In this document: positions 51,254 through 51,971 of the stretch, piece by piece
Numbering within the stretch: the stretch's first letter is position 1
How the letters are laid out: every line of letters begins with the position of its first letter
Assembly (NCBI GenBank): GCA_030038605.1
Contig: JASHSU010000092.1
Span: 1 to 55,283, forward strand
DNA length: 55,283 nt
Source of the DNA: Thermoplasmata archaeon
Lineage (GTDB): Archaea > Thermoplasmatota > Thermoplasmata > Lutacidiplasmatales > UBA184
Direction: 5' to 3'
Position numbers and translations under genes: made by a program
The notes under the pieces: generated by a model
Seen by the model: the letters and a program-made list of their open reading frames with translations, nothing else
The model's database searches: none
What the model was told of the DNA's origin: nothing

Positions 51254-51874
51254 TTGCGTCCGCCCTTCGAAAAGCAACACGTCCGCGTCGTGGGGGTGGA
51301 TGACGGCGCCTTCCGTCGCACCGACCGCTGGGCCCCCGTGGCGGCCGTGGCGGTCGCCGCGCCCGACCGGGTCGAGTCGGTCGCCACGGGTCGGGTGCGC
51401 GTGGACGGGCGCGACGCGACCGAGGTCATTATCCAGCTCGTCCGACGGACCGGCGGGCTCGACGGTCTGCACGCGATCCTGCTGGACGGTGCGGTCGTCG
51501 GGGGGTTCAACGTGGTCGATTTGGACCGCATCCAACGCGCCTTCCGGGTGCCGGTCGTCGCCGTCACATACGCGCCGCCCGACTTCACGAAAATCCGGGC
51601 CGCTCTGCGGACCTGGTTCGGCCGAGATGCGCGCCGACGCTGGGAGCTGCTCCGACGTCACCGACTGTACGCCGTGCCCCCACCGGCGCCGCCCGTGCTC
51701 CTGACCGCGGTCGGATGCCGACGCGCCGATGCGGTCCGCCTCCTCCGCCGCACCGTGGTGCGGGGTCACCGTCCCGAGGTGCTGCGTCTCGCCCACCTCA
51801 TCGCGTCGGCGGGCGACGGCCGGCGCAACCGAAGGGTTATGGGCCGGGGCGCCGGTCGGCCCTCGGGCCTGTAG
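51254..51874 (+). CDS. DUF99 family protein
   Basis: VRVVGVDDGAF...ILLDGAVVGGFNVVDL; putative TTG start. Confidence 0.88.
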   Translation: MRPPFEKQHVRVVGVDDGAFRRTDRWAPVAAVAVAAPDRVESVATGRVRVDGRDATEVIIQLVRRTGGLDGLHAILLDGAVVGGFNVVDLDRIQRAFRVPVVAVTYAPPDFTKIRAALRTWFGRDARRRWELLRRHRLYAVPPPAPPVLLTAVGCRRADAVRLLRRTVVRGHRPEVLRLAHLIASAGDGRRNRRVMGRGAGRPSGL

Positions 51875-51971
51875 CTTAGCCCGGACCAAGCACTGGCCTT
51901 CTAAGCCAGAGAACTCGGGTTCAAAGGCCCTCGGCGCGCTCCGCCGGGGGCGGAGACTCCCGACAGGCCCG
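51865..51971 (+). tRNA. tRNA-Arg(UCU) with T-loop intron (intron 51926-51957)
   Basis: Acceptor GGGCCTG/CAGGCCC, D stem GCTT/AAGC, anticodon stem CTGGC/GCCAG with loop CTTCTAA (anticodon 51900-51902), T stem TCGGG/CCCGA; spliced T-loop TTCAAAT; CCA not encoded. Confidence 0.9.
51926..51957 (+). other. Predicted archaeal tRNA intron at position 59/60 (32 nt)
   Basis: Inner helix 27-36/42-51 (GCCCTCGGCG/CGCCGGGGGC, coordinates +51900), two 3-nt bulges AAG and ACT separated by a 4-nt central segment, outer helix is the T stem. Confidence 0.85.

Follow-up and report, generated by a model that had tools for sequence, protein, structure and literature searches.

Non-canonical bulge-helix-bulge (BHB) introns interrupt the tRNA genes of Thermoproteales and other Crenarchaeota at positions 59/60, 56/57, 25/26, 20/21, and others (PMC4090602, PMC3218864), of which 59/60 is a known insertion point for archaeal tRNA introns (PMC4090602). 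The accepted picture associates non-canonical introns with a splicing endonuclease (EndA) of broad specificity, either heterotetrameric or epsilon2, that carries a Crenarchaea-specific loop (CSL) or an ARMAN-specific loop (ASL), and holds that euryarchaea with alpha4 or alpha2 enzymes retain 37/38 introns only (PMC4090602, PMC6379350, PMC12397907). The two loops are the features credited with the broad specificity (PMC6379350, PMC12397907). The alpha'2 enzymes are described as strict, and reviews assign only 37/38 introns to the euryarchaea that have them (PMC4090602, PMC6379350). Archaeal EndA is also known to recognise BHB and BHL-like motifs regardless of the mature domain of the tRNA, and homodimeric EndA is able to cut BHL-like motifs (PMC8707768).

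Here, we analyse a tRNA-Arg(UCU) gene of a Thermoplasmata archaeon (assembly GCA_030038605.1, 1.64 Mb, 77% complete), a soil archaeon related to Thermoplasma that belongs to the Lutacidiplasmatales (described in PMC9287336). The gene lies in a stretch of 55,283 nucleotides (contig JASHSU010000092.1), analysed in full and called the window below. Like the introns of Crenarchaeota, its intron is a short BHB intron at 59/60, several tRNAs of the genome have one, and some tRNAs have two. Unlike them, it occurs in a Thermoplasmatota lineage with an alpha'2 EndA that lacks the CSL, the 59/60 T-loop is the main non-canonical site found, and the BHB is near-canonical with a frequent A57.G mismatch. 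ARMAN-2, with its epsilon2 EndA, is likewise a lineage of the euryarchaeal side with introns outside 37/38 (PMC12397907, PMC6379350), but the EndA described here is built of two repeats where epsilon2 has three units, and it lacks the ARMAN-specific loop. The Asgard Atabeyarchaeia and Freyarchaeia are also soil archaea with many non-canonical tRNA introns; they belong to another phylum, and their density is far higher, at 92-95% of tRNA genes (PMC11291895). The permuted tRNAs of Thermofilum and Cyanidioschyzon merolae share the same T-loop junction, 59/60 (PMC3218864), whereas here the halves stand in normal order around a short intron.

BHB introns at 59/60 are therefore already known in archaea, chiefly in Crenarchaeota. 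What is less expected is to find many T-loop introns per genome together with a loop-less alpha'2 EndA in a class of euryarchaea. A search of the open-access literature, with most subscription journals and the tRNA databases outside its scope, found no paper on introns in the tRNAs of Methanomassiliicoccales or Thermoplasmatota; tRNA databases may already list such genes.

Results

A tRNA-Arg(UCU) gene split within the T-loop

The window had been predicted to hold a split tRNA-Arg(UCU) gene at 51865-51971, and our reading of the sequence agrees exactly with the coordinates and anatomy of this original prediction. The gene reads GGGCCTG-TA-GCTT...AAGC-A-CTGGC-CTTCTAA-GCCAG-AGAAC-TCGGG-TTCAAA, followed by 32 nt and then by T-CCCGA-CAGGCCC-G. 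It has the acceptor stem GGGCCTG/CAGGCCC, the anticodon TCT, the T stem TCGGG/CCCGA, and, once spliced, the T-loop TTCAAAT. Its features are as follows.

51830..51840, + strand: BRE/TATA-like element CGAAGGGTTAT, about 25-34 nt upstream of the gene (A/T conservation in relatives; putative promoter)
51865..51971, + strand: tRNA-Arg(UCU) gene including the intron, 75-nt mature tRNA (partial Rfam match; Arg(tct) by ARAGORN on the spliced sequence)
51865..51925, + strand: exon 1, from the acceptor 5' strand to T-loop position 59 (conserved in relatives)
51915..51919, + strand: outer BHB helix, 5' strand, the T stem UCGGG; partner 51959-51963, CCCGA (sequence, fold)
51920..51923, + strand: central BHB helix, 5' strand, U54 U55 C56 A57; opposite 51952-51955, GGAG, as U.G, U-A, C-G, A.G (pairing counts in distinct sequences of relatives)
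51924..51926, + strand: 5' bulge AAG; probable cut after the second base, 51925|51926 (sequence, comparison of relatives)
51926..51957, + strand: 32-nt intron between positions 59 and 60 (sequence, loci of relatives, pairing, covariation)
51927..51936, + strand: inner helix, 5' strand, GCCCUCGGCG; partner 51942-51951, loop 51937-51941 (folding, covariation)
51942..51951, + strand: inner helix, 3' strand, CGCCGGGGGC (folding, covariation)
51952..51955, + strand: central BHB helix, 3' strand, GGAG (pairing counts in relatives)
51956..51958, + strand: 3' bulge ACU; probable cut after the second base, 51957|51958 (sequence, comparison of relatives)
51958..51971, + strand: exon 2, with U60, T stem 3' strand, acceptor 3' strand, and discriminator G73; CCA not encoded (sequence, ARAGORN)

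A standard finder misses the interrupted gene. The Rfam tRNA model aligns only to 51865-51923 (32.5 bits), and ARAGORN reports no tRNA in the whole window or in the gene with its 32 nt left in place, and still misses the tRNA-Arg(UCU) gene when run with its intron option. Removal of the 32 nt in silico restores the T-loop, the acceptor and T stems, and a complete cloverleaf, which ARAGORN reports as tRNA-Arg(tct). The warning that standard tRNA finders can miss such genes is thus justified for ARAGORN, and tools of this type will undercount the tRNAs of such genomes.

The intron fits a near-canonical BHB geometry

The classes of BHB were reportedly defined by Marck and Grosjean in 2003. The fold claimed for the unspliced gene has the T stem as outer helix, a central helix UUCA/GGAG, and a 10-bp inner helix. 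The pre-tRNA is more stable than dinucleotide shuffles (z = -3.07). In its minimum-energy fold both the outer helix, formed by the T stem, and the inner helix of 10 bp are present, and the central helix of 3-4 pairs is absent. The outer and inner parts of the claim hold as stated, and we place the central helix in this gene because pairing at positions 54-56 is conserved and because a relative folds with it, not because of the gene's own minimum-energy fold.

For the structural comparison, we reduced 162 loci with T-loop introns to 113 distinct sequences. Positions 54-56 are pairable with the 3' end of the intron in all 113. Position 57 forms G-C in 35 of the 35 sequences with G57 and A.G in 75 of the 78 with A57, the gene in the window being of the A.G type. 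Its central helix consists of three pairs plus A57.G; it is fully paired in all G57 relatives, one of which (G054) folds as a textbook 3-4-3 BHB that includes this helix. Two 3-nt bulges oppose each other in this gene, with the pattern AA|N and NN|T across the compared sequences, and cuts after the second base of each bulge would produce exactly the junction that had been proposed, A59|intron|U60.

Among 77 distinct A57-group introns (Lutacidiplasmatales), 90.9% of the pairs at nine inner-helix positions are standard. Shuffling the columns 1000 times gives 68.6% +/- 1.2% (maximum 72.2%), and sliding the partner strand by 1-3 bases gives 41-53%. The helix is kept as structure, not as sequence, and covaries strongly, far beyond chance. 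The prediction of a T-loop intron at 59/60 with BHB geometry is supported.

T-loop introns recur in the genome and across the class

We combined pattern and family searches in the source genome and counted at least seven further 59/60 introns. A 59/60 pattern slightly looser than the one used across the class has nine matches there. Eight of them are tRNAs whose acceptor and T stems are intact around an insertion of 26-38 nt: Arg(UCU), Arg(UCG), Gln(CUG), Glu(CUC), Ser(GCU), Gly(UCC), Leu(UAG), and Lys(UUU). The central helix has its full 4 bp in five of the eight, and A57.G is found in Arg(UCU), Ser(GCU), and Leu(UAG). After in silico removal of the T-loop intron, ARAGORN gives the expected anticodon for six; Leu(UAG) and Lys(UUU) go unrecognised because each has an extra D-arm insertion (BHB geometry by eye).

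These two apparent D-arm insertions are BHB-like (tRNA-Leu(UAG), L303, G000:C24:3200-3245; tRNA-Lys(UUU), L317, G000:C154:1096-1144), the latter with a TAGG/CCTA central helix. Another apparent D-arm insertion with BHB-like geometry is present in a tRNA-Met(CAU) (L020, G000:C142:24330-24432). The same genome has apparent ordinary 37/38 introns in a second tRNA-Met(CAU) (L019, G000:C33:62346-62447) and in tRNA-Leu(UAA) (L026, G000:C39:2130-2236).

Across the class, we searched for 59/60 introns with a pattern open to every tRNA whose T stem is GGG/CCC. It is matched in 294 of 400 genomes and 74 of 104 genera, only some of the matches having been checked as tRNAs, and the reversed-pattern control gave almost no matches. 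Most Lutacidiplasmatales have 4-9 matches per genome and the Methanomethylophilaceae-type family has 1-3; there are almost none in family f19, which resembles Thermoplasmatales. Three genomes of the same phylum outside the class (G452, G544, and G449; families f60 and f37) each hold several near-alike T-loop introns (TGCATG...CTTGCAA...CGAAAA), which suggests that one intron may have been copied into different tRNA genes.

The genome encodes an alpha'2 EndA without the specificity loops

From the position of the intron, the original prediction had proposed an EndA of broad specificity, heterotetrameric or epsilon-type. The genome does not support this. Its EndA is a single chain of about 350 aa (G000:C45:17091-17888; L111) that holds two PF01974 repeats, the alpha'2 type, and has 5x89 and the A. 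fulgidus EndA (1r0v, 2gjw) as best PDB matches. The catalytic Tyr, His, and Lys (Y-H-K triad) are intact and lie in the second repeat. At the site of the CSL, the protein reads YG-SRVGARLE-LSLLE, with 8 residues between YG and LSLLE, a length equal to that of the narrow enzymes of A. fulgidus (YG-SEKGDLVT-LSLIE) and M. jannaschii. The A. fulgidus-CSL chimera 3p1y has 18 residues there and the A. pernix EndA (3p1z) about 10 extra; when a class relative is aligned to the latter, the CSL stands out as a 10-residue insertion. Neither the CSL nor separate EndA subunits were found with this single chain, and the epsilon2 features (three units, ARMAN-specific loop) are absent from its two repeats; the ARMAN-2 EndA match spans 147 residues, versus 138 in a class relative. 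The loop is equally short in most of the class EndAs examined, those of family f19 being more diverged at this site. The genome also encodes RtcB (E = 5.7e-172).

The intron might instead be spliced by an unrecognised enzyme of broad specificity, either a second EndA subunit or an epsilon-type protein. A genome that is only 77% complete could have hidden one, and the A.G mismatch in three of its eight T-loop BHBs would suit a tolerant enzyme. However, in near-complete relatives, one of them 100% complete, PF01974 is found only as the two repeats of a single chain, and the loop is short in the class EndAs checked outside family f19, which makes such an enzyme improbable. Cleavage of the T-loop motif by the alpha'2 EndA is plausible because the BHB is near-canonical (3-nt bulges, three pairs plus A57.G). 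Since EndA reads BHB and BHL-like motifs irrespective of the mature domain, a near-canonical BHB at 59/60 needs no new enzyme.

The Arg(UCU) intron is conserved in a single-copy gene

BLAST searches with the locus found the gene and its insertion in the great majority of 36 genomes of the same genus, mostly at 81-92% identity, and the insertion lies at the same point in each locus read, both within the genus and in those further genera of the family that were fetched. A scan of named GTDB genomes for a UCU anticodon arm followed by an interrupted T-loop gave at least 119 stretches. Nearly all of the 80 matches listed are Thermoplasmata or Euryarchaeota records; they include MAGs of Lutacidiplasmatales (Candidatus Lutacidiplasma silvani among them) and of Methanomassiliicoccaceae, Methanoplasma, and Methanomethylophilaceae, and a few are labelled otherwise (Atopobium, 'bacterium', 'archaeon'). 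The Arg(UCU) intron at 59/60 is present throughout the genus and the family (Lutacidiplasmatales) and also in Methanomethylophilaceae-type methanogens. Its presence is patchy across families, and the EndA tree is too weakly resolved to tell a single ancestral gain followed by losses from several gains. The locus had no match among phage records.

Two of the records labelled otherwise, L177 (DBQY01000003.1, Atopobium sp. UBA1382) and L194 (DAIDCO010000017.1, 'bacterium'), match the archaeal tRNA-Arg T-loop-intron pattern; their labels or bins are probably wrong.

Because the same gene has an intron at the same point across the genus, the family, and the Methanomethylophilaceae-type methanogens, the intron is real and under selection. 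Upstream of the gene, positions -29 to -26 are 73-91% A/T in 77 distinct regions, against a background of about 10-25%. This box is preceded by a CGAA-like part, and the whole, 25-34 nt before the gene, resembles a BRE/TATA promoter and probably acts as one.

A UCU anticodon arm with a T arm occurs once per genome in all 15 genus genomes searched, 13 of them at least 90% complete, and a second tRNA-Arg(UCU) gene was found in none of the 15. The outcome that the original prediction had named as fatal to it, a second intact UCU gene with this locus degenerate in relatives, is not what these genomes contain, and we rejected a second intact gene as an explanation.

Some relatives depart from the simple arrangement. 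The genus genome G007 has two different intron-bearing tRNA-Arg(UCU) genes (L040, G007:C86; L061, G007:C52), one of whose introns is identical to that of G022, which suggests a mixed bin. One tRNA-Arg(UCU) has insertions in both the D-loop and the T-loop (L072, G038:C33), and two from family f5 have insertions in the anticodon loop (37/38) and the T-loop (L073, G041:C80; L359, G181:C114).

If a small insertion or an assembly error had turned the locus into a pseudogene or a decaying tRNA, ARAGORN's failure to see the gene would be explained, but the probability of this reading is negligible given conservation in the genus and in other families from independent assemblies, a covarying intron, an essential anticodon in single copy, and a conserved promoter-like box. 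The very stable inner hairpin of the intron could also evoke a T arm that stays enlarged and unspliced in a functional tRNA. This reading is rejected just as firmly: the T-loop consensus TTCRAAT returns only upon removal, and in relatives the intron ends obey the BHB bulge rules while the length varies from 13 to 46 nt.

Discussion

We regard it as highly probable, on the evidence of sequence and comparison, that the tRNA-Arg(UCU) gene is functional and that its intron at 59/60 is of the archaeal BHB kind, removed by proteins, namely the alpha'2 EndA and RtcB. This reading draws on the observed gene structure, conservation, covariation, single copy, EndA type, and presence of RtcB; its counterpoints are the A57.G mismatch, the central helix missing from the minimum-energy fold, and the strict-alpha'2 rule of the reviews (PMC4090602, PMC6379350).

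In the precursor, the T stem would serve as outer helix, U54-A57 would face the GGAG at the 3' end of the intron as central helix, and the remaining intron would form the inner hairpin, so that two 3-nt bulges face each other. The alpha'2 EndA would cut at 51925|51926 and 51957|51958, after the second base of each bulge, and RtcB would ligate A59 to U60. Folding and modification of the T-loop would be possible only after this ligation. The T arm may be a natural docking site. Nearly all tRNAs share T54-T55-C56-R57 and the T stem, so that one intron end (NGRR-NN) would fit the same point in many of them. A shared docking site would explain the 59/60 introns in at least eight tRNAs of this genome, and the introns probably spread by its reuse.

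We give an even chance to the proposition that Thermoplasmata, with an alpha'2 EndA that has neither CSL nor ASL, have gathered T-loop (59/60) introns on a wide scale, some of their tRNAs having D-loop introns too. If it is true, Thermoplasmata break the rule by which only a broad, loop-bearing EndA permits non-canonical introns, and either a near-canonical BHB suffices at any tRNA position or the tolerance of the enzyme comes from another, undescribed feature. With at least eight T-loop introns in one genome, this class, which includes gut and termite methanogens, provides a direct and cheap test of the accepted picture.
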